Shown here in pieces: positions 8,247 to 29,850 of a stretch of DNA of 32,977 nt. Within the stretch, counting starts at the first letter, position 1, and every line of letters begins with the position of its first letter. The notes under the pieces were generated by a model. It was not told where the DNA came from. It did not search any database and was given only the letters and a program-made list of their open reading frames with translations. The stretch comes from an uncultured Clostridia bacterium (GTDB lineage Bacteria > Bacillota > Clostridia > UBA1381): NCBI GenBank assembly GCA_947585795.1, contig CANPXG010000026.1, positions 1 through 32,977 of the forward strand, given 5' to 3'. A program made the position numbers and the translations under genes.

Positions 8247-11200
8247 ATGAAGAAACGACTTATAGGATCATTTATTGTATTAAGCATGCTTATCGCTCTT
8301 GTGCCGAACGTATCCTATGCCGATGCACAGGGTATGGGCGGTGAAGGCACCGAGCAGAATCCATACGTCTTATCAACCGGCGAGGATATTATCGATCTGG
8401 CAAACAATATTTCCGACGGCTCACTTCAAACCAAGGGGATATATTTCGAGATGACAAAGAATATTGACATCTCACAGGAAAGCTTTTCGGGTTTCGGAAA
8501 TGCGGATTTTCCGTTTGAGGGTTCATTTGACGGAAACGGTAACACGCTGACCGTAAATATGAGCTCTGCGGAAAGCTTTGTAGGTCTGTTCCCGTATATC
8601 GGCGGCAGCGGAACGGTTAAAGCGCTTACGCTTAAAGGCAGCATTACAGGAACCGCCGAACGCGGCGATGATTATTTTGTCGGCGGTATAGCCGGTGAAA
8701 ACCGAGGCGAGATAAACGGCTGTATAAACAGAGCCAACATCACGGCTAAGCGCGCGGACGCAAGCATAAGCGTACTGGCGGGTATCGCGGGATATAACTA
8801 CGGCACGATAAGAAGCTGTGTAAATGCGGAAGACATTAACGCGCCGGACGGCATGTCCGCCGCGGGCATTGCCGGCTCCGCCTACGGAGAATCGGCGGAT
8901 GATCAGGCGCATATCATCTACTGTGCAAATACCGCCAAAATTACCGCAAAGGACAAATCGGCGGCGGGAATACTGCTTACCGCGAATAAATATACGGTCA
9001 TAGAAAACTGCCGCAACGAAAATACTGTAAAGTCGGAAAGCGGCTGCGCGGCAGGTATTGCATATGATGTTCGCACGGGCGGACACGGAACTTTAAATAA
9101 GTGCGTTAATGAAGGCTCGATCGAGGGCGGCGGCAATTCGATAGGCGGAATAGTTGCGGTATTAAACGATGCGGACGTAAGCCGATGCAGCAATACGGGC
9201 AAAGTTGTATGCACAAGAACGAGCGACGGAAACCGCGTGGGCGGCATAGTCGGCGACGCGGCGGACGGCAATATTTATATGTCGTACAATGCGGCGGAGG
9301 TAACGGCTAATGGAAAGCTGCAAAACAGCGTCGGCGGTATCGCGGGCGAGTTCGGCTATACGAACCAAGAGTCGATCATTGAAGGCTGCTATAACAGCGA
9401 TGCTGTCAAAAATAACGGTACGGGCTACGCGGGCGGCATTGCGGGTATAAACTATGCTATCCACGCTGTCAGTCTTTACAATACAGGCAGCGTTTCGGTA
9501 AAGGGCGAACAGCAAACGACTACGACGGATGACGGTGAAAGCTATGTAGGCGACGGCATAGCACGTGCCGGAGGTATCGCGGGCGGCAATATGCCGCGAA
9601 ATTCACATTCACCGGTTATAAGCTTTTCGTACAATACGGGAACGGTTACACAAAGCGGAATCAGCGAAAGCGATTCGCGGGCGGGCGGCATAGTCGGCGA
9701 AAACGGCTTAAACACTCAGACGAACAACAAAGGCTCGATCAAAGGCTGCTATTACCTTTCAAACTCCGCCGTCACAGCGGATGGAGAAAACTTGGACGGC
9801 AGGCTTGATTCGGTAAGCAGTGAAACCTCCTTTGTAAACTGGGACTTTGATTACACATGGGAAATGGAAAGCAGCGGTCCCGTATTCAAAAGCGATGGAC
9901 AGACTTCATCGACTGCGTTTGAAACGGACGGCGACGCTCTTAAAAAGATTTCCGCAAACGTTCAAAACGGAAGCACATATATCGGCAAATACTTTACGGT
10001 CGCCGACAATGTAAATCTTCGGTCGGGATGGGTTCCGATAGGCGACGCGGATATGCCGTTTGAGGGAAATATTGACGGACTCGGTCATCAAATGGCGGTC
10101 GAACTGACGAGCGACGGCGGCTACAGCGGTTTTGTCGGTAATTTGGGCAGACTCGGAAGCATAAAAAATCTTGCCATAACCGGCACTATCGGCGTGAACG
10201 CAAACGGCGGCGATGTATACGTCGGCACCTTCGCAGGCTATAGCGAGGGTACTATCGAGGGCTGCACAAACAGAGCCCCCGTAACAGTTAACGCCTCAAA
10301 AGGGAACATATACGCGGGCGGCATAGCCGGATACAACAACGGCGGAACTATCTCGCAAAACCATAATCAAGACACGCTTACCGTCACCGGCGGCGAAACC
10401 GCGTACGCGGGCGGTATCGCGGGCTTTAACGACTTCGGCGGAATAATAAGCGATAACTACAGCGATAGTCAGGTTTCGGTCTCGGGCGCAGCTACGGCTG
10501 CCGCAGGACAAATAACAGGCTCACAAAGCGGCACCTCGCTGACAAAAAATTGCTACTATTACGGCGAAAACAAAGAAAACGTAAGCGGTGTTACGGGCGA
10601 CGGCAGCCCGTTTGAAAGCTGCTATTACCTTGCAAGCGCCTCTGACGGAAAAGCGGCGATCACCCAAGCGCAGTTTAGCGACACGAGCACATTCTACAAC
10701 TGGGATTTCGACAATGTATGGCAAATGGACGGAACGCTTTTAAGACCAACGCTTCGTCCCATTGACGCGGACGCAAACGGACTTGACATCAACGGCTTCG
10801 GAACGGAGGATTTTCCGTACGAGCTTGCGTCGGAGAACGATTTGATGCTTATAAGCGACCTTGCGGCGGAGGGGCGTGATTTCGAGGGAACATACTTTAA
10901 AGTAATACGCCCGATAGAAATCGATTCCGAGGACTGGATCCCTATAGGCGCGAGCGAGGATACGCCGTTCAAGGGCAATTTTGACGGCGACGGATACCCG
11001 ATAACGCTGAATATCGATTTCTCCGAAAAAATTAACGGGGGAAACTTCGGATGCCTGTTCGGATATGTTTCGGACGCGCATATAGAAAATGTTGTTACCG
11101 AAGGTACGATCAATATAGATTTCAGCAAAATCGCAATCGAAAAGCTGCCCGACACCGCCGCGGTGCTGATTGGGCAGTCGGACGGCAGCACGACCGTTTC

Positions 11201-14200
11201 CGGCTGCGTCAATCAGGCAGATATGAATATCACTATGCTCGTTGAAGTGGACCATATGCACGGTGTTGATATAAGCACTGTTGTCGGCAACGCGAAAGAC
11301 GGACTGACCATTTCGGGATGCACCAATCATGGCGATATAAATATCGATGGCAGCGGCATATTTAAGGCATATAGCAATTCTACCGACAATTTCAAAGGTT
11401 ATGCAGCCGGTATAGCCAGAAATGCGGATACGGTGACGGACTGCGTGAATAACGGAAGCATAACGGTAAAGTCAACAATAAGCGTCGTTGCCGGAATTGC
11501 GGGATATGTGAATTATGTTGTTAAGGGCTGCGTTAACAACGGTGATTTGACAATAGCCAATGATGACCTTGAGGAACATCCCGATTCGTCTTGGTTCGAA
11601 ATTATATTTAAAGAGAGAAGAATAGCAGGTATAGTTGACCAGATATATTACAGCTCTGACGGCACCGGCGTAAAGAGCTGCGCCAACAACGGCGACATAA
11701 AAATGGACACGCCGCAGCTGACAGAGTACACCTACAAAGGAAAGCTTGCGGGTATTATCAGTTCAATAGACGCAAACTCTGACAATGACAGCGTTATTGA
11801 GGGCTGCGAAAACCACGGTGATATTTATATGGATTTTTCCAAAATCTCCGATATAGCCGACGCGCAGGTGATAAGCGGCGGAATAGTCAGCTCCGTAACG
11901 GCCCGCAATACCGACCAGAGCACATTTAAACCCGATGAAAATCACCTTATTATGGTAAACTGCTATAACGACGGCAGGATATATGCGAAGGAAAACGCCG
12001 GCGGTCATGTTATAGACCCCAGAGGCGGGCTGTACGGAGAAATGCCGACCGGCAAAATCGAAAACTGCTATAACTATTCCGAAAAAACGGAAGGCACCTA
12101 TCCTATCGGTCCGAAAAGCACTTACGGAGTGAGCACCAACAGGAAACCGTACGATACGCCGCTGGAAAACTGCTATTTCCTCAACGACAACGGCACAAAG
12201 AGTGAGCTTAGCGACGCGAAAGGAATAAGCTCGGAGCAGTTTGCAGATGCCGACACCTTTAAGAACTGGGATCTAACCTTTATCTGGGAAATGGACGAAG
12301 AGCTTAAAAGACCGGTGCTAAGAAAACGCGGCACCGAGCAAAATCCGTATATAGTTGACGATGTCGAGGATTTAATTGATTTATCGGAATCCATTTCCGG
12401 CGGAGTAAACTTTGAGGGTGAATTCTTTAAAATGACAAAGAATATAGTCATTGACGAGAACAGCGGCTTCACTTATATGACAGGCACATTCCGAGGAACA
12501 TTTGACGGAAACGGCAACGAAATAACGGCGGCAACCGATAAATTCGTAAGACTTTTCTCCACCGTCGGCACAAACGCGGTTGTAAAAAATCTTTCCGTAA
12601 CCGCGGAAAATAACAGCTACGGAGGTCTGATTGCGAACAACGTCGCCGGAACGATTGAAAACTGTACCGTTAACGCGAACGTAAATGCAAACGATGTGGA
12701 CGACGCACGCAGGGGACTTATAGCCAATGAAACAAGCGGCAGCGGCACTCCGAGAATCAGGAATTGTACCGCCAATGGCTCAATAACGGTCAATGGCGGC
12801 AAGGACTATATTTCAACCGGCGGAATAATAGGCGAGATAGACGTGGACGGAACCGAAATTACAGACTGCTCATCCACAGTGAATATAATCGCCTCCGACA
12901 CGGAAGCGAGCAACACATATACCGGAGGTATTGCGGGCGGCATCTCTTCGCATAACGGCGCAAAAATAGCCGAATGTCACAATTCGGGAAATGTATTCGG
13001 TGAATTCGCGGTAGGCGGCATAGTCGGATATGTACAGTATAAAGCGTCGATCCTTAACTGCTTCAACGACGGCGAGGTTCGTGTCGGAGCCGATGCGATT
13101 ACGCCCGATGAAAAGTCATACTCATTAGTAGTACGCGGCAGCGCCGGCGGAATTGTCGGCGCGGTCGGAGGCAAAACTGATTATTCGGGTAATATAACAG
13201 ATATAACCAACTGCTATAACTACGGACCTGTAAGAAGCGACTCGGCGGGCATAGACTGCTGCGGTATCGCCGCAACCGCATACGGGGATAATTGGTGGCA
13301 CGAAGACGTGCCGTACGAGTATCTGGGAGAAATTAACTCGATCTCGACCTACTGGCTCTATGGCAGCGCAGATTTTGCTTACATGGATTATAACGGAGGA
13401 CAAGGCGACATTGTAAACGATTACAGCGTCAGCAAGGATAAGCTTGCCGACATAAAAACGTTTACGGATTGGGATTTCGCAAATGTATGGATAATGGACG
13501 AGGAGCTTCAAAGACCTGTATTGCGCTGGGAGAAAACGCACGCCATGTCACTTGGCGAGCTCAACGGCAGCGGAACAGCGGAGGACCCGTATGAAATCTG
13601 CGACAAACTGTCGTTTGAGGCAATGAAGAAATATGTTGACAGCGGAAACGACACAACGGGACTGCATTTCATTCTCACCGAGGATATAGACCTTGGCGGT
13701 CTGACGAGCGACGGTTCGGCAATTGCGTACGAACAAATCACGCCCATAGGTGAAGCACTGTACGTTTTTGACGGAACGTTCGACGGAAATCACCATAAAA
13801 TCTCAGGTCTGTACATAAATTCCGACCTGGAGTTTGTCGGTCTGTTCGCGCGTTTGAGCGATGAGAGCGAGGTAAAGGATTTAACGATCGAGTCGGCGAC
13901 GGTAAGAGCGTCAAGGTCAACCGCAAAAGTCGGCGCGATCGCCGGACAGAGTGGCGGCACGATAACGGACTGCATCAATAAAGGAAGCGTGACGAACGGT
14001 GGAGCATATACCGGCGGTATCGTCGGCTTTGCCGAAAGCGAAAGCGGCGCTCGCATTACGGAGTGCGGCAACGAGGGTACCGTTATCGGAGGCTCACGCG
14101 ATACCGGCGGTATCGTCGGAGCACTCACGGGCGTGGGACAAAATCTGTATAATATCGGCAGCGTTACCGGAAGCGGTAATGGAGATTATTACACAGGAGG

Positions 14201-17200
14201 CATCGCGGGCAGAATTTCCGCGTCACCTGCAGGCGGTGCGTACACGTCCGTTATGTATAATACAGGAGAGGTAAGCGGCACGAACGGAAATACCGCGCAG
14301 CTTGTCGGTACGGCGGGAAGCCAAATAAAGCTCATAACGCACGGTAACTCATCGGGACTTCCCAATGTGGCGGACGGTACGCTCACAAATGTTACATCAC
14401 ATAATGCCGGTGATGATTTGTCGGACGGAATACTCACGCATGAGCTTAACGGCGAATCCGAAAATAAGCCGTGGCGGCAGCGTATCGGAAGCGACACTCA
14501 TCCGACATTCTCATCGGACGATAACGCGGTGGTATACAAGGTGACGTTTATGAAGGACGCGGAACAGGAGGACGGCTCCTTTGAAGAGGCGCTATACCAC
14601 GAGGAATATATAAACGCCGACGGCGAAATTACATATCCCGAAGTTCCGACGGACGATCAGTACAAGTTCAAATGGTGGACAGCGGATACGGAGGCAAAAA
14701 CGGAATTTACGCCGCCAATCACGGGTGATACGGTACTTTACGCCGTAGGCGAGGAAATGTATGGCGGAAATAACACCGACAGAATTATCCGCATGACCTA
14801 CGGAACAGAGAGCAGAATTGACTTGTCCGAGCACGTGCGCTTTGCGGCGCCGCGAGAGATGGGAGAACTCAGTGACACATCGGGTAAATTCACATACACG
14901 ATCGTTGAAAACGGAAACTGTGACGAGGCGTATACCTTCGGTGACAGCCTTGTCATACCGGCGGGCGTTGATACGGGAATTTACAAAATCACAATAAAAG
15001 CGGAAAGAAAGCCTGTGAAAAGTGACGAATTTACGTTGTTCTCAATACAATCTCCGTTTGACCTTGAACCCGTTCGGTTCGACATCAGAGTGATCATGCA
15101 AAAACAGGATCAGGTGATAGATCCGCCGGAAATGGCAGGCAACAGCGCAACGACGATACGTTTGAAGCCGATGGACATCCACGGCACTGTATCGTATGCT
15201 TTAATCAGCGAGAAGCTTCTTAACAGCATATACTCCGACAAAGACAACGATAACAAGGTCCTGCCGCTTGTATGGCGCACAAATCCCGTTTTTGAAGGTC
15301 TTGAACCGAGCACGAGGTATTATGCGTACGCGAGGACCGAGGGCGACAGTAATTACAACGGTGCCGCGAGCTATCCGAGCATTGTATATACTTCGGAGCA
15401 TATTCATACATGGACATATACGCGGGACGGCAATACAATAACCGCGCAATGCACTGATGATGCCTGCCCTGACAGCGGCGGCGGAAGCTTCACCCTTGGC
15501 GAGCCTTCGGGAGATTACGTCTATGACAAGCAGCCTCACCCGCCGATAATTGTCGATACGCTTAAAACGGACGACGTTCCTGTGATCACGTATTACTATA
15601 AACCGTTTGACGGCAGTGATTACACGGTCGTTGATTCTGCTGTGAACGCAGGCGATTACAGGGTTACGGCGACATTGGGAGAAAATGTGATCACGGTTGA
15701 GTACAGCATTTTAAAGGCGCATCTGCCGTCGGTCGCGGACAGCCTGACGTATCAGGCGTATTACGGCGACACGCTTGAGGATATAGAGCTTCCCGCCGGC
15801 TATGCGTGGAAGGACGAGCGATCGACATCGGTCGGAACCGTGGGTACGCACACATTTAAAGCCGTATTCACTCCCAACGACACTCAGAATTACTGCTGTG
15901 AAACGCTTGACGTTATAGTAGAGGTACAGCCCAAGCCCGAGAGCATTATAAGCAGCGAGGACGTGAAAATCGATTATGCCGCCGAGCAGCTTCAAGGCTT
16001 TAAAGACGGCAATTATGCGCTGATTTGCGGTGACGTGATATATAACGAAACCGTCGGCGCGGAAGGAGTGATAAATATAAGAGAAGGCTGCTTCGGTAAG
16101 GACATTACGATCGTGAAAACGGCGAGAAACAGTAATTATACCGTAAGCAAACGCATTACCGTAAGCATACCGGATAAACCTGCCGCGCCGGAGGGACTTG
16201 AAGCGATCAAGGCTGACACGGAGGATTCAAATACGGGTAAAATAATCGGCTTGACCGAAGGAATGGAATACCGTTCCGCAAAAGATGAAAAATGGATTTC
16301 TGTTGACTCCGACGAAGTGGAAAATCTGCCGGCGGGCGCGTATTATGTCCGCGTTAAGCAAAGCGGCGATGCGTTCGCGGGAAGAGTTGCCATAGTCGCA
16401 GTAGGTGTAAAGTCCAAAGTTACCGCAACATTTGTGGACGGAAACGATGTCATACTTAAGACGGAAAATATCCCAAGCGGCACCGTGCCGACGTATGATT
16501 TGGCAGCTGATTCCGTGCCGACAAAGAACAGCACGGCGCAGTATGATTATACGTTCACCGACTGGGATAAGGATATATCCGAACCGATTTTTATGGACAC
16601 GGTTTATACCGCGCGGTTTAATAATGTTCTTCGCTCATACTCCGTACGCTGGATCGCTAACGGAACGGTCAAAAAGACGGAAACATATGATTACGGCACA
16701 ATGCCAAGTTACGGCTCCGAGCCGCAGCGCGAAGGCAACGCGTGGTATTCGTATAATTTCAGCGGCTGGTATCCCGAGCTTGAAGAAGTAACTGGCAACG
16801 CGATATATGCGGCATCATTTGAAAGACTGCCGAGGACATATAAGGTAACGCTTGATCCGAACGGCGGAGAAATGACCGACGGAACTGTTACGGAGTACAC
16901 GGCAGGCGCGGGGACCACACTTCCTTCACCGGTAAGAAACGGCTACTCGTTCCTCGGCTGGTATGACGGAGATGGCGTTAAGCATGTAGAGATAGGTATC
17001 ACGGAGGTGGGAGATAAGGAATTTACCGCGCGTTGGCTGAAAGTCAGACAGCGTGAAACTATTATCGATTCAAGCGATATCGTGACCGATTACGCAAATG
17101 AAACGCTTGGCGGATTTGAGAACGGAAAATACCTTGTCGTATGCGGAACTCATTCGGAAATTGTTGAGGTAACAGACACGGGAACGATCCCCATCAGTGA

Positions 17201-19397
17201 AGATTACTTCGGTAATACAATAGATATAATGAGGATCGCGCGCGACGAGAACTACCTAAGCAGTATACGTGTATATACGGAGGTGGACGAGCGTCCCGAA
17301 GCACCGGTAAGCGCTAACGGAGTAAATGCGTCTAAGCTTGAAGCAGCGGACGGACGGATCACGGGCTTGAGCAATGCCATGGAGTACCGTTTCGCAAGCA
17401 ATACTGACGATACGGAATGGATTTCTGTCGGAAGCGGAGAATCGCAAGCGTATAGCCTGACGGCGGGCATATATTATGTACGCTACAAATCAACTGACTC
17501 CGCATTCGCGAGCGAAGAAGTGAAAGTTACGGTAGGTGTGGAGAACTACGTTTTGGCAGTCTTTGTGGACGGTGACGGCAAGGCTGTGAAAATCAAAACG
17601 GTTGTGGAGGGCGCATCACCCGAATATACCGAAACCGATCCGCTTCCGACAAAGAAAAGCACCGCACAGTATGAATACAAATTTAGCGGCTGGGACAAAA
17701 ATCCGAACGAACCCATCAGCGAGAATACGATATACACGGCTCAATTCGACAGCGTATTGAACGAGTACACTATAACATGGATAGTGAACGGCGTAACGAG
17801 CCAAACCACCTGCCTCTACGGAACAATGCCTTCATACGGCTCGATTCCAACAAAGGACAGCACCGACACCAATTCTTACGAATTTGCCGGCTGGTACCCG
17901 TCCGTTATGGCTGTAACGTGCGACGCAGCATACGTCGCGGTATTTGACGAAACCTCGAGGAAGTACAAAGTGACGCTCGATACAAACGGCGGAACGCTCG
18001 CGCCGGGCAGCGATATTACAAGCTATACCTGCGGCGAACCGAGGAATTTACCGACGGCGGACGAGATCACAAAGGGCGGCTGTGACTTCCTCGGCTGGTA
18101 CGACGAAGCGGGGAATAAGGTCACGCGCATCGCCTCGGACGAAACCGGCGACAAGACGTATACCGCGCATTGGGATACAACGGTGACAAAGGAAGACATT
18201 ATTTCCGAAAGCGATGTTGTAACCGACTATGAGGCGGAAACGCTCGGCAATTTTGAGGACGGCGACTACCTTATACTTCTCGAAGCTATGTCACTGTCGG
18301 TGACGGTCACAAACGGCACTATCCCGATAAAGGAAATATACTTCGGACACGATATACAAATCATCAAAAAGGCACGCGACGGCTATCACACCGACAGCGA
18401 TCCCATAACTGTCAGCGTGAAGGCACGTCCTGCCGCACCGGACGGAATTACCGCCCTCCGCGCTGCGGATGATAACTCCGCGGATGGCGTGATAATAGGT
18501 GTAAGATCGTATATGGAATACCGCAAGGCACAAACAGACGAATGGATATCGGTCGAAAACGGACAGACGCGTATAGAGGGCTTGGAAGCCGGCATATACT
18601 ATGTGCGCATAAAACAAAGCGGCGAGGACTTTCACGGACGTTCAAAGATAGTCGTTGTGGGAATTGCAAATACAGTTACCGCAGCCTTTGTCGACGGTGA
18701 CGACAACTTGTTATATGCCGAGCATATAACTCAGGGCTCGCTGCCGCAATATCACGGCGAAACTCCAACAAAGTCGGAAACGGACGCTTACAGATACGAA
18801 TTTAGCGGCTGGAACAACGATATAACAAAGCCCCTGACTGTCGATACGGTTTTCGCGGCACAGTTTACCGAGATCCCGAAAACATACAGCGTAACGCTTG
18901 ACCCGAACGGCGGAACGATCGATGACGGATATGATATAACCGAATACACCTACGGCGACGCGGTCGCTCTGCCGGACGCGAACCATGTAACGCGCGACGG
19001 CTTCGACTTCGCAGGATGGCGTGACGAGAACGGACGGCTCGTTACAAAAATTCCGCAATACAGCGTTGGCGACGTGGAATACACCGCCGACTGGAAAGAA
19101 CCGATGTTGACGATCACGGATTATCCTTCAATAGGGGAAAGCGGTAAAATATCTGCCGAGATAAACAACAATACCGATAAAGCAATAAACGGAAACGCGT
19201 ATATAGCGGTATACAGCAAGGACGGCGCATTACTAAGCGTTTCACTTGAAAACGTAGTAAATCTTGGCGTTAACGAAAGGCTGAATATAAATTCGGCATT
19301 TGAACACATGGCTAAGGACGGAGATGTCATAGCGCTGTACTTCTGGGACAAAGCTTTAAAACCGTTGTCCGTACCGAAAAAAATAAAAATCAGATAG
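8247..19397 (+). CDS. Giant secreted GLUG/InlB-repeat surface protein (3,716 aa)
   Basis: ATG at 8247 follows AAGGAGGT and lies 12 bases after the previous stop, so translation is probably coupled. The signal peptide is residues 1-25 (ending VSYA). Residues about 32-2090 form five GLUG-type cassettes. Each tends to open with 'GTE.NPY' or 'GSGTAEDPYEI', then 'PF.G.FDGNG', then many 'GGIAG...I..C.N.G' units. Four of them close with 'F.NWDF..VW.MD'. An InlB-like unit follows (about 2096-2170), then Ig-like domains and an HIHTWTY...C..D.C unit near 2385. An MBG-like domain (about 2415-2480) comes next, then three tandem super-repeats (about 2566-2932, 2941-3312, 3321-3618). The tail (3620-3716) carries 'YIAVYSKDGALLSVSLENV' and 'FWDKALKPLS', a diverged version of the module ending the neighbouring proteins. 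GLUG and InlB repeats are known in adhesins and surface proteins. No enzyme domain or sortase/SLH anchor is visible. Function is inferred to be adhesion or matrix binding. Confidence 0.9.
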   Translation: MKKRLIGSFIVLSMLIALVPNVSYADAQGMGGEGTEQNPYVLSTGEDIIDLANNISDGSLQTKGIYFEMTKNIDISQESFSGFGNADFPFEGSFDGNGNTLTVNMSSAESFVGLFPYIGGSGTVKALTLKGSITGTAERGDDYFVGGIAGENRGEINGCINRANITAKRADASISVLAGIAGYNYGTIRSCVNAEDINAPDGMSAAGIAGSAYGESADDQAHIIYCANTAKITAKDKSAAGILLTANKYTVIENCRNENTVKSESGCAAGIAYDVRTGGHGTLNKCVNEGSIEGGGNSIGGIVAVLNDADVSRCSNTGKVVCTRTSDGNRVGGIVGDAADGNIYMSYNAAEVTANGKLQNSVGGIAGEFGYTNQESIIEGCYNSDAVKNNGTGYAGGIAGINYAIHAVSLYNTGSVSVKGEQQTTTTDDGESYVGDGIARAGGIAGGNMPRNSHSPVISFSYNTGTVTQSGISESDSRAGGIVGENGLNTQTNNKGSIKGCYYLSNSAVTADGENLDGRLDSVSSETSFVNWDFDYTWEMESSGPVFKSDGQTSSTAFETDGDALKKISANVQNGSTYIGKYFTVADNVNLRSGWVPIGDADMPFEGNIDGLGHQMAVELTSDGGYSGFVGNLGRLGSIKNLAITGTIGVNANGGDVYVGTFAGYSEGTIEGCTNRAPVTVNASKGNIYAGGIAGYNNGGTISQNHNQDTLTVTGGETAYAGGIAGFNDFGGIISDNYSDSQVSVSGAATAAAGQITGSQSGTSLTKNCYYYGENKENVSGVTGDGSPFESCYYLASASDGKAAITQAQFSDTSTFYNWDFDNVWQMDGTLLRPTLRPIDADANGLDINGFGTEDFPYELASENDLMLISDLAAEGRDFEGTYFKVIRPIEIDSEDWIPIGASEDTPFKGNFDGDGYPITLNIDFSEKINGGNFGCLFGYVSDAHIENVVTEGTINIDFSKIAIEKLPDTAAVLIGQSDGSTTVSGCVNQADMNITMLVEVDHMHGVDISTVVGNAKDGLTISGCTNHGDINIDGSGIFKAYSNSTDNFKGYAAGIARNADTVTDCVNNGSITVKSTISVVAGIAGYVNYVVKGCVNNGDLTIANDDLEEHPDSSWFEIIFKERRIAGIVDQIYYSSDGTGVKSCANNGDIKMDTPQLTEYTYKGKLAGIISSIDANSDNDSVIEGCENHGDIYMDFSKISDIADAQVISGGIVSSVTARNTDQSTFKPDENHLIMVNCYNDGRIYAKENAGGHVIDPRGGLYGEMPTGKIENCYNYSEKTEGTYPIGPKSTYGVSTNRKPYDTPLENCYFLNDNGTKSELSDAKGISSEQFADADTFKNWDLTFIWEMDEELKRPVLRKRGTEQNPYIVDDVEDLIDLSESISGGVNFEGEFFKMTKNIVIDENSGFTYMTGTFRGTFDGNGNEITAATDKFVRLFSTVGTNAVVKNLSVTAENNSYGGLIANNVAGTIENCTVNANVNANDVDDARRGLIANETSGSGTPRIRNCTANGSITVNGGKDYISTGGIIGEIDVDGTEITDCSSTVNIIASDTEASNTYTGGIAGGISSHNGAKIAECHNSGNVFGEFAVGGIVGYVQYKASILNCFNDGEVRVGADAITPDEKSYSLVVRGSAGGIVGAVGGKTDYSGNITDITNCYNYGPVRSDSAGIDCCGIAATAYGDNWWHEDVPYEYLGEINSISTYWLYGSADFAYMDYNGGQGDIVNDYSVSKDKLADIKTFTDWDFANVWIMDEELQRPVLRWEKTHAMSLGELNGSGTAEDPYEICDKLSFEAMKKYVDSGNDTTGLHFILTEDIDLGGLTSDGSAIAYEQITPIGEALYVFDGTFDGNHHKISGLYINSDLEFVGLFARLSDESEVKDLTIESATVRASRSTAKVGAIAGQSGGTITDCINKGSVTNGGAYTGGIVGFAESESGARITECGNEGTVIGGSRDTGGIVGALTGVGQNLYNIGSVTGSGNGDYYTGGIAGRISASPAGGAYTSVMYNTGEVSGTNGNTAQLVGTAGSQIKLITHGNSSGLPNVADGTLTNVTSHNAGDDLSDGILTHELNGESENKPWRQRIGSDTHPTFSSDDNAVVYKVTFMKDAEQEDGSFEEALYHEEYINADGEITYPEVPTDDQYKFKWWTADTEAKTEFTPPITGDTVLYAVGEEMYGGNNTDRIIRMTYGTESRIDLSEHVRFAAPREMGELSDTSGKFTYTIVENGNCDEAYTFGDSLVIPAGVDTGIYKITIKAERKPVKSDEFTLFSIQSPFDLEPVRFDIRVIMQKQDQVIDPPEMAGNSATTIRLKPMDIHGTVSYALISEKLLNSIYSDKDNDNKVLPLVWRTNPVFEGLEPSTRYYAYARTEGDSNYNGAASYPSIVYTSEHIHTWTYTRDGNTITAQCTDDACPDSGGGSFTLGEPSGDYVYDKQPHPPIIVDTLKTDDVPVITYYYKPFDGSDYTVVDSAVNAGDYRVTATLGENVITVEYSILKAHLPSVADSLTYQAYYGDTLEDIELPAGYAWKDERSTSVGTVGTHTFKAVFTPNDTQNYCCETLDVIVEVQPKPESIISSEDVKIDYAAEQLQGFKDGNYALICGDVIYNETVGAEGVINIREGCFGKDITIVKTARNSNYTVSKRITVSIPDKPAAPEGLEAIKADTEDSNTGKIIGLTEGMEYRSAKDEKWISVDSDEVENLPAGAYYVRVKQSGDAFAGRVAIVAVGVKSKVTATFVDGNDVILKTENIPSGTVPTYDLAADSVPTKNSTAQYDYTFTDWDKDISEPIFMDTVYTARFNNVLRSYSVRWIANGTVKKTETYDYGTMPSYGSEPQREGNAWYSYNFSGWYPELEEVTGNAIYAASFERLPRTYKVTLDPNGGEMTDGTVTEYTAGAGTTLPSPVRNGYSFLGWYDGDGVKHVEIGITEVGDKEFTARWLKVRQRETIIDSSDIVTDYANETLGGFENGKYLVVCGTHSEIVEVTDTGTIPISEDYFGNTIDIMRIARDENYLSSIRVYTEVDERPEAPVSANGVNASKLEAADGRITGLSNAMEYRFASNTDDTEWISVGSGESQAYSLTAGIYYVRYKSTDSAFASEEVKVTVGVENYVLAVFVDGDGKAVKIKTVVEGASPEYTETDPLPTKKSTAQYEYKFSGWDKNPNEPISENTIYTAQFDSVLNEYTITWIVNGVTSQTTCLYGTMPSYGSIPTKDSTDTNSYEFAGWYPSVMAVTCDAAYVAVFDETSRKYKVTLDTNGGTLAPGSDITSYTCGEPRNLPTADEITKGGCDFLGWYDEAGNKVTRIASDETGDKTYTAHWDTTVTKEDIISESDVVTDYEAETLGNFEDGDYLILLEAMSLSVTVTNGTIPIKEIYFGHDIQIIKKARDGYHTDSDPITVSVKARPAAPDGITALRAADDNSADGVIIGVRSYMEYRKAQTDEWISVENGQTRIEGLEAGIYYVRIKQSGEDFHGRSKIVVVGIANTVTAAFVDGDDNLLYAEHITQGSLPQYHGETPTKSETDAYRYEFSGWNNDITKPLTVDTVFAAQFTEIPKTYSVTLDPNGGTIDDGYDITEYTYGDAVALPDANHVTRDGFDFAGWRDENGRLVTKIPQYSVGDVEYTADWKEPMLTITDYPSIGESGKISAEINNNTDKAINGNAYIAVYSKDGALLSVSLENVVNLGVNERLNINSAFEHMAKDGDVIALYFWDKALKPLSVPKKIKIR
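8340..14500 (+). repeat. Five in-gene GLUG cassettes
   Basis: Within the 3,716-residue protein, the cassettes begin near 8340, 9912, 10795, 12328 and 13564. Cassettes 1-4 end with a recognisable punctuation near 9832, 10693, 12259 and 13462 (F.NWDF..VW.MD, then 'RP.LR' in cassettes 2-4). Each carries several GLUG-like units with the core GGIAG or GGIVG and a following C.N motif. The number of units differs between cassettes, so expansion and loss have been frequent. The fifth cassette ends differently (HELNGES...W) before the InlB-like unit. Confidence 0.8.
15942..19100 (+). repeat. Three tandem super-repeats in the C-terminal third of the giant protein
   Basis: Copies start near 15942, 17068 and 18206 with the shared opening 'SS/SESD.VTDY..ETLG.FE.G.Y'. 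Each then has 'DG.I.GL...MEYR...WISV', 'AG.YYVR.K', an InlB-like 'FVDGD....' unit and a final 'VTLD.NGG' to 'GWYDE.G' unit. Copies 1 and 2 also have a middle unit with 'W..NG' and 'YGTMPSYGS.P'. Copy 3 lacks it and is about 70 residues shorter. The DNA has diverged, so these are old duplications rather than an assembly artefact. Confidence 0.8.
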
Positions 19398-24643: not shown

Positions 24644-24679
24644 TATCTACGGCATATTATTTCCGGTGAGGTGCAATTA

Positions 24680-26470
24680 ATGACAAATGAAACAACGATA
24701 GGCAACAACCGCACAATACGACGTTCCGTGACAAAAATGTTCCCGTCGTGCTTTTTAAGAATACTTGCGATAAACTTTTTAACAATGGTAGACGCGATGC
24801 TGGCGGGCTTTTTCTTCACGTCGACGCACATCGCGGCGATAGGCGTTGCCGCGCCGGTCACGATAGTAGCCGCGGCGCTTATGAACGCGATAGCGGCTGG
24901 CGTGGAGCTTGGCATGAGCGTCGCGATGGGCGCGGGAAACAACGAAAGGGCAAAAAGACTGTCGTCACTCGGCATGCTCGTGACAATACTTTTGTGCACG
25001 CTGTTTCTCGTCGGCTCCGAAGTATTTGCGCACGGCATAGTACGCCTTTGCGGCGCGAACGAACCGGAAATCGAGGCAATTTCGGCGCTCTACCTAAGAT
25101 TTGTTGCGCCGTACTTCGTATTCCTCGGCATAAAGCTCATTTTCACGGCTGTACTGAGCGTCCACGGCTGCCAAAACGACGTTACGCTGTCAACTGTCAT
25201 CGAACTCGTACTAAACGTTGTGATGTCCGTACTGCTCGTGAAATGCACAAACCTCGGCGTTGCCGCACTCGCCATCGGCTCATGGATAGCGACATTTATG
25301 AGTATGCTCTGCTGCATCGTGTCAATGAAACGCAGAAAACTGCCGATTATGCCCAAGCTTTACCGCTTCAGGTTTTCCGACGCTAAAGCGATTTTCAAAT
25401 ACGGCTTCCCGACCTCCGCCGACAATTTCGCGGAGGGCATTGCCGGCAGCGTTATAAACAACATTGTCGTCGTCACTCTCGGCACGGCGGGACTTGCCGT
25501 TTACTCGATTTTAAACAGTATACAATGCCTCATGCTGACCGTTTCCGACGGAATGCGCGCGGCGATGTCCCCGATGGTGGGAATATTCTACGGCGCTCGC
25601 GACAAAAACGGCATCAGGAAAACGCTCGCTGAGGGCTTAAAAATCACATACATTTTCGCCGTGATATGGGTTGCGGTCATTTTCGCGTTGCTCACACCGA
25701 TAATAAATATTTACATGAACGGAAGCGGCGCGGAGGGCATGGAGAGCCTTATCCGCACCGGCGTATACGTTGCGGCTGCCTTTATGCCGATCGCTCTTCT
25801 CCTATACGTCATGATAGGCTTCTACGAGGCTGTCGGCAAACCGCTGCTCTCGCTCGCGTTCGCCGTGATACCCGACTCTATAATAATACCGATAATGCTG
25901 TTTATACTCGTGCCGAAACTCGGCTACAACGGAATGTGGCTCGCGTACGGCGGCTGCGAAACGGTATTTCTTATAATATTCGCGCTCCTGTTCGTTCTGT
26001 GCAGACGCAAATTAAAGCCGTCGGCTGACGACATACTCTTCCTCGACGAAAGCGTGCGCGACAACGTACCGATGAAGGACATAAGCATACGCTACAACAA
26101 CACCGACATAAGCGGCTTATCGGCTGAAATTCAGAGCTTTTTAGAGAGCAACGGCGCAAAGCCGCGCACGGCGTACATGAGCGCGCTGTGCCTCGAGGAG
26201 CTTGCGGCTGACTTTATCGCCCACTCACAAATCACGAACGAGAAGATAAACGAAAACCGCGAGCTTATGGACATAAAGCTGTTCTCCGACGAAAACACGT
26301 TCCGCATCATGATACGCAACACAGCCGACAGGTACGATCCGCTTGACTTTACATACGACAAAGACGACTTCTCAAAAATAGGCGTACACATGGCGCAGCA
26401 GGTCGCCAAAGAAATTATGTACAATTACATCTACCAAATGAACATCGTCACGATAGACATGAGCAAGTAA
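24680..26470 (+). CDS. MATE-family transporter with C-terminal RsbW-like (HATPase) domain
   Basis: 596 residues from ATG 24680, with GAGGTG about 7 bases upstream; a GTG at 24671 in the same frame is less likely. Residues 1 to about 450 are a MATE multidrug/drug-sodium antiporter core with about 12 hydrophobic helices (motifs such as MVDAMLAGFF and GVELGMSVAMGAGN), located in the membrane. Beyond the usual MATE length there is a cytoplasmic domain at about 462-596 that follows the order of an RsbW/SpoIIAB-type ATPase: CLEELAADF (504-512) for the N box, NTADRYDPLDF for the G1 region, KIGVH...A for G2. Key residues differ from a working kinase: D511 in place of the Asn, N547 in place of the Asp of DxG, and K566-I567-G568 in place of GxG. 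It may bind a STAS partner without phosphorylating it. First gene of an operon with larE. Confidence 0.85.
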   Translation: MTNETTIGNNRTIRRSVTKMFPSCFLRILAINFLTMVDAMLAGFFFTSTHIAAIGVAAPVTIVAAALMNAIAAGVELGMSVAMGAGNNERAKRLSSLGMLVTILLCTLFLVGSEVFAHGIVRLCGANEPEIEAISALYLRFVAPYFVFLGIKLIFTAVLSVHGCQNDVTLSTVIELVLNVVMSVLLVKCTNLGVAALAIGSWIATFMSMLCCIVSMKRRKLPIMPKLYRFRFSDAKAIFKYGFPTSADNFAEGIAGSVINNIVVVTLGTAGLAVYSILNSIQCLMLTVSDGMRAAMSPMVGIFYGARDKNGIRKTLAEGLKITYIFAVIWVAVIFALLTPIINIYMNGSGAEGMESLIRTGVYVAAAFMPIALLLYVMIGFYEAVGKPLLSLAFAVIPDSIIIPIMLFILVPKLGYNGMWLAYGGCETVFLIIFALLFVLCRRKLKPSADDILFLDESVRDNVPMKDISIRYNNTDISGLSAEIQSFLESNGAKPRTAYMSALCLEELAADFIAHSQITNEKINENRELMDIKLFSDENTFRIMIRNTADRYDPLDFTYDKDDFSKIGVHMAQQVAKEIMYNYIYQMNIVTIDMSK

Positions 26471-26493
26471 ATATTTCATAAGGAGCGTATGGC

Positions 26494-27285
26494 ATGAACG
26501 AAAAATATAACGATTTAAAGGAATATATAAAATCACTGAAATCAGTCGCGGTCGCCTTTTCGGGCGGCGTGGACTCCACGTTCCTTTTAAAGACCGCGCA
26601 TGATGTTTTAGGCGACAGGTGCGTCGCGATAACGGCGCGCTCCTGTTCGTTCCCCGAGCGTGAGCTTAACGAATCAAAGAAGTTTTGCGAAAAGGAAGGG
26701 ATAAAACAGATAATTGTACAGTCCGAGGAATTAAAAATCGACGGCTTCGCCGAGAACCCGAAAAATCGCTGCTACCTCTGCAAAACGGAATTGTTTACAA
26801 AAATGCGAAAAGCGGCGGCGGAGCTTAACATAGAAAACATCGCGGAAGGCTCGAACGTTGACGACAACGGCGACTACCGTCCCGGGCTTATCGCGGTCAA
26901 AGAGCAAAATATCAAAAGCCCGCTTCGCCACGCGGGACTTACGAAAAACGAAATACGAGAATTATCCAAAGAATTGGGTTTAGATACATGGGAAAAACCG
27001 TCGTTCGCGTGTCTTGCGTCACGGTTCGTCTACGGCGAAACGATTACCGAGAAAAAGCTCGGCATGGTCGATAAGGCGGAGCAATACCTTCTTGACATGG
27101 GGCTCACGCAGGTACGCGTCCGCGTACACGGGGACATGGCAAGAATTGAGGTTAGCAAAAACGAATTTCCGAAAATACTCGAAAAATCGGACAGCGTGTA
27201 CGACTACTTAAAATCGCTCGGCTTTACATATGTTTCGCTCGACTTGGGCGGGTACAGAACGGGCAGCATGAATGAGGTTTTATAA
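26494..27285 (+). CDS. larE: LarE, ATP-dependent sacrificial sulfur transferase
   Basis: 263 residues, ATG 26494 with AAGGAG 8 bases upstream, 23 bases after the MATE stop. The PP-loop SGGVDST is at 23-29. KPSFACLASR places C173 at the position of the sulfur-donating cysteine known from the Lactobacillus plantarum enzyme. RCYLCK adds C93 and C96. LarE adenylates the carboxylates of pyridinium-3,5-biscarboxylic acid mononucleotide and installs sulfur, a step in making the nickel-pincer nucleotide cofactor of lactate racemase and related enzymes. Extra cysteines raise the possibility of an iron-sulfur type LarE that is not sacrificial; I cannot prove this by eye. LarB follows directly, while LarC and a LarA-type enzyme are not in the window. 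Confidence 0.9.
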   Translation: MNEKYNDLKEYIKSLKSVAVAFSGGVDSTFLLKTAHDVLGDRCVAITARSCSFPERELNESKKFCEKEGIKQIIVQSEELKIDGFAENPKNRCYLCKTELFTKMRKAAAELNIENIAEGSNVDDNGDYRPGLIAVKEQNIKSPLRHAGLTKNEIRELSKELGLDTWEKPSFACLASRFVYGETITEKKLGMVDKAEQYLLDMGLTQVRVRVHGDMARIEVSKNEFPKILEKSDSVYDYLKSLGFTYVSLDLGGYRTGSMNEVL

Positions 27286-28038
27286 ATGGAACAGAAGGAA
27301 TTAAAAAAACTGCTCGAGGAGGTCGCCTCGGGACAGACGGATATTGACAGCGCGATGCTCAAGCTCAAAATAGAGCCTTTTGAGGACTTGGGCTTCGCGA
27401 AGGTAGACCACCATCGCGGCATACGTCAGGGCGCGGCGGAGGTGATATACGGCGCGGGCAAAACACCTGAGCAAATCACAAAGATTGCCGAAAAACTGCA
27501 CGACGGCGGACAAAAAACCGTCCTTATCACCCGCATGAGCAAGGAAGCCGCAAAGGTTGTGGGCGAAAAACTTCCGCTTACGTACCACGAGATCGCAAAA
27601 ATAGGAATAGTCGGAGAAATGCCAAAGCCCGACACAAAATCAAATATAGTTATCGCAAGCGGCGGCACAAGCGATATGTCTGTCGCTGAGGAAGCCGCGC
27701 TCACAGCCGAAGCACTTGGAAGCCGCGTCACGCGTCTTTACGACGTGGGCGTGGCGGGACTTCACAGACTGCTTTCGCACGCGGAGGACATTATGAGCGC
27801 GAAGGTCATAATAGCCGTCGCGGGAATGGAGGGCGCGCTTGCGAGCGTAGTCGGCGGACTTGCCGACTGTCCCGTTATCGCCGTACCGACAAGCGTGGGC
27901 TACGGCGCGTCGTTTGGCGGGCTTTCGGCGCTGCTTTCAATGCTAAACTCGTGCGCCAGCGGTGTAAGCGTCGTCAATATCGACAACGGCTTCGGCGCGG
28001 GATATTTGGCGAACATGATAAACAGAATAGGGGAGTAA
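27286..28038 (+). CDS. larB: LarB, nickel-pincer cofactor biosynthesis carboxylase
   Basis: 250 residues. The ATG at 27286 abuts the TAA of larE (27283-27285), so the two are translationally coupled. The C-terminal half resembles AIR carboxylase (PurE), as is known for LarB: GGTSDMSVAEEA, GMEGALASVVGGL, PTSVGYGASFGGL and the end NIDNGFGAGY. LarB carboxylates the pyridinium ring of nicotinic acid adenine dinucleotide and cleaves its phosphoanhydride, giving the substrate for LarE. Length and motifs are complete. Confidence 0.92.
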   Translation: MEQKELKKLLEEVASGQTDIDSAMLKLKIEPFEDLGFAKVDHHRGIRQGAAEVIYGAGKTPEQITKIAEKLHDGGQKTVLITRMSKEAAKVVGEKLPLTYHEIAKIGIVGEMPKPDTKSNIVIASGGTSDMSVAEEAALTAEALGSRVTRLYDVGVAGLHRLLSHAEDIMSAKVIIAVAGMEGALASVVGGLADCPVIAVPTSVGYGASFGGLSALLSMLNSCASGVSVVNIDNGFGAGYLANMINRIGE

Positions 28039-28077
28039 CCCACAAAAAAGTCAATAAAAATGAAAGGAATGAATAAA

Positions 28078-28650
28078 ATGAAAAAGGATCTAGGCTTGGT
28101 TCAGGCGGTATACCCGATGCCCGTGCTAATGGTTGCAGCGTATGACAAGGACGAAAAGGTCAACGTGATGAACGCCGCATGGGGACAGATATGCGATATG
28201 GACAAAATTATTTTGTTCATCGGCGAGGGTAAGAAAACGTGGCTTAACATCAAGGAAAGCAAGGCGTTTACCGTAGCTCTTGCGGACGAGGCTCACATGG
28301 ACGCGGCTGACTTTTTCGGCATCGCTTCGGGCAACAAAATCGACGACAAGTTTGAGCGCACGGGATACCGCGCCGTTAAGAGCGACAAGGTACATGCGCC
28401 CATCATCGAGGAATTTCCTGTCGTCATGGAATGTGAGCTGCTTGAATTTCTGCACACCGACTACGTTGACGGCATAGTCGGAAAAATCGTCAACGTCAAG
28501 GCGGAGGAGGCTGTCTTGTCGGAAAACGGCAAGGTCGATCCCGCGAAGCTTCACGCGCTCATGTTTGACCAGTTCCAAAACGGATATTACGTTACCGGCG
28601 AAAAGGTCGGCACGGCATGGAACGCTGGCATGGAGCTTATGAAAAAATAA
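28078..28650 (+). CDS. Flavin reductase-like FMN-binding split-barrel protein
   Basis: 190 residues from ATG 28078, chosen because AAAGGAAT lies about 7 bases upstream; an in-frame ATG at 28060 has no such site. The sequence follows the flavin reductase/DIM6-NTAB fold: 'YPMPVLMVAAYDKDEKVNVMNAAW' at the start, 'FTVALADEAHMDAADFFGIASG' and 'DKFERTGY' in the middle, and a C-terminal half with 'EC.L.E...TDYVDGIVGKI'. Such proteins bind FMN in the cytoplasm and often donate electrons to or from unknown partners. It is 39 bases after larB and before the operon terminator, so probably co-transcribed. A link to the nickel-pincer pathway is only suggested by position. Confidence 0.85.
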   Translation: MKKDLGLVQAVYPMPVLMVAAYDKDEKVNVMNAAWGQICDMDKIILFIGEGKKTWLNIKESKAFTVALADEAHMDAADFFGIASGNKIDDKFERTGYRAVKSDKVHAPIIEEFPVVMECELLEFLHTDYVDGIVGKIVNVKAEEAVLSENGKVDPAKLHALMFDQFQNGYYVTGEKVGTAWNAGMELMKK

Positions 28651-28665
28651 ACCAAACAAAAAAAC

Positions 28666-28690
28666 GCCTTTGAGTAAATAGCTCAAAGGC
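28666..28690. terminator. Bidirectional terminator between converging genes
   Basis: GCCTTTGAG (28666-28674) and CTCAAAGGC (28682-28690) make a perfect 9-bp stem. On the minus strand the stem is followed by GTTTTTTTG, a strong T run ending the methyltransferase-STAS gene. On the plus strand it is followed by ATTTAATATTTT, which is weaker. Confidence 0.8.
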
Positions 28691-28700
28691 ATTTAATATT

Positions 28701-29762
28701 TTAGCAGTTTAAAATATCGCTAAAGCCCGTCTGATCAAATATCGTCTGAACCGTTTCGTTTTGTCCCGTGACGGAGAGGTTGCCCTCTCCGACCTGCTTA
28801 GTCATAAGAAGCAGCACGCGCAGTCCCGCCGAAGAAATATATTCAAGCTCCGACGCGTCAACGACGATTTTCTGAGCCTTTTCCTTCGCCGCCGTTTTCT
28901 CGTAAACGCCCAAAAGCTGCGGCGCGGTTATCGAGTCAAGTCTGCCGCGAAGCGCTATTTTCATCTCGCCGCCGTGAGCGTTCGCCGTCACGCCAAAGGA
29001 GTCGCTTTCATAATTTTCTTCCGTTTCCTCAAAGTCTTCGTCGGGCGTGAATATCCAAATGTACACGTTCTCGAGCGACTTTATGTAGTCCGCCTTCGCC
29101 TCGTCGGAGTAGCCCGCAAGGCTGCCGATCCCCGTCACGTAATCTGACATGGGAACGCGCTCCCACTTTAAGCCGACAGAACGCAGGAAATTCGTTACAG
29201 TTTTCATGGTGTTGTCAAAATCGTAAGCAAGAACGGTCATGTTCTGTACCTCGATGGTTGTGTCCGACTGCTCCGCGTAAACGTTCATCGTCTTTACCAG
29301 ATCCTCGAACGCCGCTTCACCATGGACAGCCTTGAGCGCCGCCATGAAAAGCGGGTTCGCGTCGGTATCGGACGTTATCCACCGTCCGCCAAATTCCTTG
29401 AGCAAACGGCGTATATTCGTGCAAAGCTCGGTAAGCTCGGAGTTATTGAAATACGTAAGCAGTCCGTCGGATATTATGGTGATCTCGCCGTCAACATTGT
29501 TTAGAGCGTCACGGAGCGAGCGGTAATTTGTCGCGTCCACGCTGTGGTACTCTGTGTCCTTTATTCCGCGCTCGGCGCACATCCCGCCGATAACGGGAGC
29601 GATCTCGTCCGTCACGATGGGCAGATCGCAGCCGATGTAGGGCATATCCTTAAGCTGTTCATTCAACGCGCGCGGTGAATATCCGCACGCGATATCGACG
29701 ACCGTGCTGTCCTTATAGCTGCCTGTGATTTTGTTTACTGCGCGGAAGCGTGTTTCCGTCAT
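28701..29762 (-). CDS. LCM-type SAM methyltransferase fused to a C-terminal STAS domain
   Basis: 353 residues on the minus strand. The N-terminal part resembles the leucine carboxyl methyltransferase/polyketide O-methyltransferase group: VVDIACGYSPRA (21-32) for SAM binding, YHSVDATN, and ISDGLLTYF. Residues about 265-353 form a STAS domain (anti-anti-sigma type) with VVDASELEYISSAGLRVLL; S310 or S311 is where such domains are phosphorylated. STAS domains bind RsbW-like kinases, and one such domain sits on the MATE protein encoded about 2.2 kb away. The start is uncertain: ATG 29762 is 25 bases from the best ribosome binding site (AGGAGGT, complement of 29788-29794), and no ATG, GTG or TTG lies closer in frame. 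Methyl acceptor unknown. Confidence 0.8.
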   Translation of the reverse strand: MTETRFRAVNKITGSYKDSTVVDIACGYSPRALNEQLKDMPYIGCDLPIVTDEIAPVIGGMCAERGIKDTEYHSVDATNYRSLRDALNNVDGEITIISDGLLTYFNNSELTELCTNIRRLLKEFGGRWITSDTDANPLFMAALKAVHGEAAFEDLVKTMNVYAEQSDTTIEVQNMTVLAYDFDNTMKTVTNFLRSVGLKWERVPMSDYVTGIGSLAGYSDEAKADYIKSLENVYIWIFTPDEDFEETEENYESDSFGVTANAHGGEMKIALRGRLDSITAPQLLGVYEKTAAKEKAQKIVVDASELEYISSAGLRVLLLMTKQVGEGNLSVTGQNETVQTIFDQTGFSDILNC

Positions 29763-29850
29763 GACGGTCAGTTCAAGACTGAGCGCGACCTCCTGCTTTT
29801 TTCTTCTCCTTTACAACTTCTTTACGTTATTTTTGACTAAACGCAAGGTA

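Follow-up and report, generated by a model that had tools for sequence, protein, structure and literature searches.

The stretch of DNA analysed here (the window: 32,977 nucleotides, contig CANPXG010000026.1 at its full length) is all of contig C26, one of the 130 contigs that make up the 2.54 Mb draft genome of an uncultured Clostridia bacterium. On its plus strand lies a gene for a MATE exporter that carries a C-terminal domain resembling RsbW, and 2.2 kb away, on the opposite strand and past larE, larB, and a flavin reductase-like gene, lies a gene for a methyltransferase-like protein that ends in a STAS domain. Proteins of these types are known from the partner switching of Bacillus subtilis, in which SpoIIAB/RsbW acts with SpoIIAA/RsbV and SpoIIE/RsbU, and partner switching is best known for freeing a sigma factor. 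A preliminary description of the window proposed that the two fusion proteins form a dispersed partner-switching circuit, the output of which could be transport or methylation. In the present analysis, the position of the exporter gene next to other parts of the circuit in many relatives among the gut Clostridia points to a pump that is controlled by direct protein docking rather than via gene expression.

The MATE fusion and its RsbW-like tail

The fusion gene, listed at 24671-26470 on the plus strand, has a better start at the ATG at position 24680, which yields a protein of 596 amino acids and agrees with the relatives. The identity of the transporter part (residues 1-458, 24680..26053, plus strand) is beyond doubt: the MatE profile PF01554 matches with 93.3 bits against a cut-off of 24.9, and TIGR00797 matches with an E-value of 1.9e-35, under its subfamily cut-off. 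The remainder of the protein (residues 459-596, 26054..26467, plus strand) is a degenerate RsbW/HATPase_c_2 domain. On this tail, the HATPase_c_2 profile (PF13581) scores 15.6 bits with the full-length protein and 19.9 bits when the domain is taken separately, which does not reach the gathering cut-off of 27.4. However, hhalign comparison with ten free RsbW proteins gives a probability of 98.6% for ten diverse MATE-fused tails and of 94.8% for the tails of the window's close relatives. Homology of the tail to RsbW is therefore supported by profile-profile comparison, and the extra RsbW/SpoIIAB-type domain that the preliminary description had seen on the transporter is borne out. A search of PDB sequences with the tail profile returned weak matches only (VraS, E 0.01; RsbW, E 0.72).

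Such fusions were found in 24 of the 391 genomes sampled from the class by a tail search that domain maps confirm, a lower bound at that cut; most of the matches set aside were weak or lay in frames consistent with RsbW that is free or fused to PP2C. Tail search and gene maps together place them in 14 of 121 relatives, and in a sample of 299 genomes of the phylum, four from outside the class have tail matches in frames of 584-623 amino acids, as judged by the tail search alone. Among 67 RsbW-like domains placed in an unrooted tree, a branch supported at 100/98 separates the 43 MATE-fused ones from all the others; several branches are long enough to draw long-branch warnings. A single fusion event is the simplest history for such a grouping, and thus the MATE-RsbW-like fusions appear to be an old clade, probably with one origin. 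The 43 loci include three odd ones, namely L081, which is cut at a contig end, L165, a remnant of 348 amino acids, and L077, where a frame of 924 amino acids (L077:6654-9428) runs from the MATE fusion into a further protein stretch with no stop between them, as either a real fusion or a sequencing error.

In SpoIIAB, residues of the N-box, the G1 box, and the GxG motif bind Mg-ATP. An intact nucleotide site of the RsbW/SpoIIAB kind is lacking in the window's tail. According to the alignment columns, its N-box (EELAADFIAH, 26195..26224, plus strand) retains both Glu residues, with Asn replaced by Asp; the G1-box region (IRNTADRYDP, 26312..26341, plus strand) has Asn in place of Asp; and in the G2-box region (SKIGVHM, 26372..26392, plus strand), which follows a shortened lid, GxG is reduced to one Gly. 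We compared the boxes of the 43 MATE-fused domains with those of 24 other RsbW domains, which are free or fused to PP2C or APH. A GxG with a hydrophobic residue behind it is present in none of the 43 tails and in all 24 other domains, where it takes the form GG[LMV]G. Five of the 43 tails have, at the place of G2, a GG pair followed by I-E, and 40 retain the second Gly of GxG. The genome's own SpoIIAB reads SGMGF at this site, and hence the first G of the GG pair is dispensable, whereas GxG is still kept there. The lid ahead of the G2 box spans 8-16 residues in the MATE-fused tails (fewer than 15 in 42 of 43) versus 15-17 in the 24 others. The Glu-Glu pair of the N-box is retained in all 43 tails, the N-box Asn in 24, the G1 Asp in 27, and Asn and Asp together in 24; in the window's clade, which comprises nine loci, both Asn and Asp are lost. 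With nucleotide boxes as degenerate as these, the MATE tail cannot simply be called an RsbW kinase.

The tail is nevertheless not decaying in the window's clade but is under purifying selection. Compared with seven relatives, the ratio of nonsynonymous to synonymous substitution rates (dN/dS) is 0.025-0.123 for the window's tail versus 0.126-0.178 for the membrane part, and it is lower for the tail in all seven comparisons, nearly equal in that with L084; these values are rough, as synonymous sites are near saturation in several pairs.

Circuit and peptide synthetase genes beside the exporter

Neighbouring genes were mapped by picking the longest open reading frames and by profiles grown within the examined loci, not from curated annotation. 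The controls were 40 MATE genes, that is, the first 41 among the PF01554 matches listed for 14 fusion-carrying genomes, minus one at a contig edge; many of them are near-copies, and a flank of 2 kb is available on both sides at 34 of the 40 controls and 35 of the 43 fused loci. A same-strand gene for STAS, PP2C, or free RsbW lies within 2 kb at 17 of the 43 fused loci and at none of the 40 control MATE genes among the matches listed (p = 2.5e-6, a value that, like the other Fisher values given here, overstates certainty because the genomes are not independent). A PP2C gene beside the fusion at L079 was considered as a further member of the module and rejected, as it is SpoIIE, which lowered the count from 18 to 17. 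Since the controls come from 14 genomes only, the fairest contrast is that within these genomes, in which 5 of 19 fused loci have such a neighbour versus 0 of the 40 control MATE genes listed. When the distance is extended to 5 kb on either strand, and the window's methyltransferase-STAS gene and SpoIIE are counted, the numbers are 22 of 43 fused loci and 2 of 40 listed controls. Grouping of the fused genes at 70% identity leaves 24 clusters, 12 of which have a partner-switching neighbour within 2 kb.

At some loci, the gene set is fuller. L071 combines the MATE fusion with P204, STAS, PP2C, and RsbW, and L072 has STAS, the MATE fusion, RsbW, and PP2C; other fuller sets surround the fusion at L158, L162, and L152. 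Thus, STAS, RsbW, and PP2C are encoded together with the MATE fusion in several relatives; in the genome studied here, they occur without a MATE fusion on contig C16, not in the window. Of the 24 genomes that have the MATE fusion, the PP2C family was found in 21, versus 35 of the 367 that lack it, a tally in which at most two candidates per genome were scored and in which part of the association is the same operons counted again. Together, the same-strand neighbours and the co-occurrence with PP2C make transport a plausible output, as the preliminary description had suggested.

Two other gene types recur in these neighbourhoods. P204, a protein of approx. 200 amino acids, is encoded near STAS and PP2C genes at L011 (5729-6343), L071, L078, L089, L105-L108, L149, L152, and L168; neither Pfam nor NCBIfam gave a match for the L011 copy at the cut-offs applied, and Pfam gave none for the L149 copy. 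GH3-type genes adjoin the MATE fusion and PP2C at L158:6077-7681 and L164:4283-5845; no such gene was seen in the window.

At 7 of the 43 loci (L070, L143, L145, L146, L147, L151, and L161), the MATE fusion starts directly after a gene for a nonribosomal peptide synthetase (NRPS). The Pfam scan covered the L070 protein, in which it finds two stretches each of the condensation, adenylation, and carrier types, plus a reductase-type domain; the other six were recognised by their match to parts of this protein, and the seven share its adenylation, condensation, and reductase parts. Among the matches listed, none of the 40 control loci has such a gene (p = 0.012). At L074, an NRPS with the same parts lies ahead of STAS and a PP2C-RsbW fusion, with no MATE fusion within the examined stretch. 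Since NRPS genes precede some of the exporters, the putative switch may set the time at which such peptides leave gut bacteria.

The methyltransferase-STAS protein and the module on contig C16

The second fusion gene of the window (28701..29762, minus strand) encodes a SAM-dependent methyltransferase-like part (residues 1-245, 29028..29762) and a STAS domain (residues 261-351, 28710..28982). The STAS domain is matched by PF01740 with 44 bits and by TIGR00377 with 60.3 bits, above the curated cut-off of 53.45. Its ISSAG motif (28824..28838, minus strand), which we take to be the site of the phosphorylated Ser, lies within YISSAGLRV, a string that is invariant in all ten aligned methyltransferase-STAS sequences; a C-terminal STAS domain with a Ser-Ser motif had indeed been predicted for this protein. 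The same prediction named the enzyme an LCM (leucine carboxyl methyltransferase), and this identity was rejected: Pfam LCM (PF04072) has no match at E 1 in the ten sequences scanned (HMMER filters drop most matches above 0.1), and the LCMT1 chains in the PDB appear at E 0.33-0.37. The better matches are generic, namely a weak one to Methyltransf_25 in seven of the ten sequences (best E 0.013) and one to PDB entry 3g5l (E 0.0083).

The N-terminus of the window copy is approx. 65 residues shorter than that of most relatives examined, and the missing residues were not found in the window, where tblastn matches begin at 29795. Compared with four relatives, it is under purifying selection, with dN/dS of 0.088-0.115 in the enzyme part and 0.154-0.260 in the STAS domain. 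At L093 and L094, from two relatives, the conserved N-terminal part is encoded ahead of the methyltransferase-STAS gene but out of frame with it, close to a stretch rich in glycine; for this frame change, sequencing error, decay, and phase variation are indistinguishable.

The preliminary description was right that the window encodes no PP2C, but a full module sits elsewhere in the genome. On contig C16 are the genes for P204, for a STAS-APH fusion, for a free STAS protein, and for a membrane receptor that has PP2C together with an intact RsbW domain; two further STAS-APH genes lie on C66 and C3, and SpoIIAA and SpoIIAB are encoded on C2. Candidates for the kinase and the phosphatase of STAS are thus present outside the window in the same genome.

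Methyltransferase-STAS proteins form a scattered, separate family, found in 11 of the 391 class genomes and 13 of the 121 relatives when matches reaching into the methyltransferase part are counted (two of the 13, G003 and G067, are fragments). The PP2C-RsbW receptor of 946 amino acids, counted as full-length matches (15 genomes, E 4e-302 or better), is present in 7 of these 11 genomes versus 8 of the 380 others, which leaves 4 of the 11 without it. Moreover, the closest counterpart of the STAS domain of the window's methyltransferase fusion is the free STAS of C16, at 44%; two STAS-APH proteins stand at 29 and 35%, and SpoIIAA stands at 20%. Since the fusion tracks the receptor and its STAS domain is nearest to that of C16, it is likelier a client of the C16 module than of the MATE protein; it is probably another client of the same hub and not a private partner of the exporter, and the STAS-APH kinase fusions may likewise be its clients. 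Natural STAS-APH-RsbW chains, in each of which a small-molecule kinase domain is joined to both halves of the partner switch, occur at L109:1942-3564 (by Pfam), L142:7139-8701, L150:12702-14309, and L152:9452-11041.

Transport as the proposed switched step

On balance, we lean, with little more than even confidence, towards the view that the MATE tail is an old pseudokinase docking domain through which a STAS protein gates the exporter; the loss of kinase activity, the docking, and the gating of transport with its direction are what we infer from the homology, the gene neighbourhoods, and the degenerate boxes described above. According to this model, the tail probably no longer phosphorylates, and its RsbW-like fold would be kept as a docking platform for STAS. 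A separate, intact RsbW, here most likely the domain fused to the PP2C receptor on C16, would phosphorylate the STAS protein, and the PP2C domain of the receptor would remove the phosphate upon a signal. In one of its two states, STAS would dock on the tail and alter the activity of the exporter, which would stand where the sigma factor stands in classical partner switching. If this is true, transport itself is the switched step in a clade of exporters that bear the RsbW half, and the tail, with GxG lost in all the copies examined, would clearly exemplify a pseudokinase retained for docking.

A broader proposal, which we put forward tentatively and consider doubtful as a whole, is that of a clostridial partner-switching network with metabolic outputs. 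In such a network, receptor phosphatase and RsbW kinase would set the phosphorylation of STAS proteins, and the pseudokinase-tailed exporter, the APH fusions, and the methyltransferase fusions would be clients, so that the making, modification, and export of small molecules (in some species, an NRPS product) might be switched jointly without a change in transcription.

Several observations weigh against the docking model. At 26 of the 43 fused loci, no STAS, PP2C, or RsbW neighbour lies within 2 kb; the clade of the window has one such neighbour among nine loci, and this is SpoIIE. Of the seven loci with an NRPS gene, six lack partner-switching neighbours within 2 kb, the exception being L070. 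Given the 24 tails with both Asn and Asp and the 40 with the second Gly, some tails may still bind nucleotide, and as the site is among the most degenerate in the window's clade, the domain could have been re-used there. AlphaFold2 yielded no usable model, with a mean predicted local distance difference test score (pLDDT) of 38.5 for the MATE protein (from a six-row alignment) and 38.8 for the methyltransferase-STAS protein alone.

The main alternative, which we regard as rather unlikely, makes the transporter an input: its substrate or transport state would alter the tail, the tail would sequester STAS, and both the kinase/phosphatase pair and further clients, for example STAS-APH, methyltransferase-STAS, or a sigma factor, would thereby be informed of the exporter's load. 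The same neighbourhoods and the conserved tail fit this equally well, and the STAS-APH and STAS-APH-RsbW genes near MATE fusions (L075, L142, L150, L152, and L154) could be the real outputs. However, both module PP2C proteins that were scanned have sensor-like parts of their own (5TM in L011 and HAMP in L071), so a sensor is already present, and the position of the exporter directly behind an NRPS gene at seven loci is the one expected if export is the output.

The specific two-protein circuit of the window's MATE and methyltransferase-STAS proteins, as first proposed, is improbable. In its favour are the 2.2 kb between the genes and their joint occurrence, uncorrected for kinship: of the 391 class genomes, 24 have the MATE fusion, 11 the methyltransferase-STAS gene, and 6 both (p = 1e-5), and for the 121 relatives, the numbers are 14, 13, and 10, respectively (p = 2e-9). 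However, the genes lie on opposite strands with three genes between them, and in none of 13 other genomes that have both are they within 10 kb of each other: in one, they are approx. 21 kb apart on one contig, and in 12, they are on different contigs of draft assemblies. Within the 56 genomes that have the PP2C family, the co-occurrence (5 genomes with both, of 21 and 8) is not significant (p = 0.14), on which ground a private pair was rejected. In addition, the methyltransferase-STAS protein was not found in 18 of the 24 genomes with the MATE fusion, and its STAS domain is closest to the free C16 protein of the four STAS domains of its own genome that were compared. Thus, of the dispersed circuit proposed for the window, the part that places the MATE tail with partner-switching genes holds, whereas the pairing with the methyltransferase is not supported; likewise, the co-occurrence across Clostridia on which the proposal was to be judged is found in the raw counts and is not significant among PP2C-family genomes.

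We give a similarly small chance to the idea that the tail is an active, membrane-tethered serine kinase of the RsbW type, or an anti-sigma factor, and that transport is unregulated. The Glu pair of the N-box, present in every tail, and the joint retention of Asn and Asp in 24 of them would suit such an activity; against it stand the universal loss of GxG, a lid shorter in 42 of 43 tails than in any of the 24 other domains, the additional loss of Asn and Asp in the window's clade, and the separate genes for intact-looking RsbW copies that several of the gene sets with a MATE fusion also contain. That the tail is a structural or oligomerisation element unconnected to STAS is very improbable, as the association with STAS, PP2C, and RsbW genes in half of the sequence clusters (12 of 24) speaks against it, even if the degenerate nucleotide site and the mostly orphan genes of the window's clade would agree with it.

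The docking model has both parallels and differences among known systems. The three domain types of B. subtilis SpoIIAB/SpoIIAA/SpoIIE (HATPase_c_2, STAS, and PP2C) are encoded side by side in the relatives, whereas the RsbW-like copy considered here is fused to a MATE exporter and has degenerate nucleotide boxes. Certain gut NRPS clusters reportedly make dipeptide aldehydes and pyrazinones; a reductase-bearing NRPS directly ahead of the exporter at 7 of the 43 loci resembles these, with the two-module order established by Pfam at L070 only, but no NRPS was seen in the window. In SypE/SypA of Vibrio fischeri and HsbR/HsbA of Pseudomonas aeruginosa, a STAS protein is under the control of a partner protein, SypE being a serine kinase and HsbR/HsbA being tied to the regulation of RpoS (PMC4517449, PMC10120452, PMC6482189). 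Regulation of STAS by a partner is common to these systems and to the one proposed here, but the available parts of these sources mention no fusion to a transporter. As far as the available part of another source goes, SulP/SLC26 transporters carry a STAS domain, and all4160 of Anabaena is a STAS-glycosyltransferase (PMC8256260). The likeness to SulP/SLC26 lies in a transporter with a domain from the partner-switching kit; there it bears the STAS half, whereas the MATE protein bears the RsbW half. Like methyltransferase-STAS and STAS-APH, all4160 joins an enzyme to STAS, but the enzyme differs, and, unlike all4160 as described there, methyltransferase-STAS tracks a PP2C-RsbW receptor across genomes. 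No MATE-RsbW fusion is described in the titles and abstract openings searched, which cover few subscription papers and are therefore weak evidence of novelty.

Regarding the other genes of the window, larE and larB (nickel-pincer cofactor; 26494-28038) lie close behind the MATE gene, and the flavin reductase-like gene comes after them, all on the same strand; no match to larE/larB was found in loci L016-L020 of five relatives. PADLOC gave no match for the MATE fusion or the methyltransferase-STAS protein. Upstream, two very large genes (564-8234 and 8247-19397) encode Calx-beta, Big_2, and Listeria-Bacteroides repeats and are likely to specify surface proteins. Large genes are also found near the MATE fusion in several members of the window's clade, one of them with SLH domains (L083).

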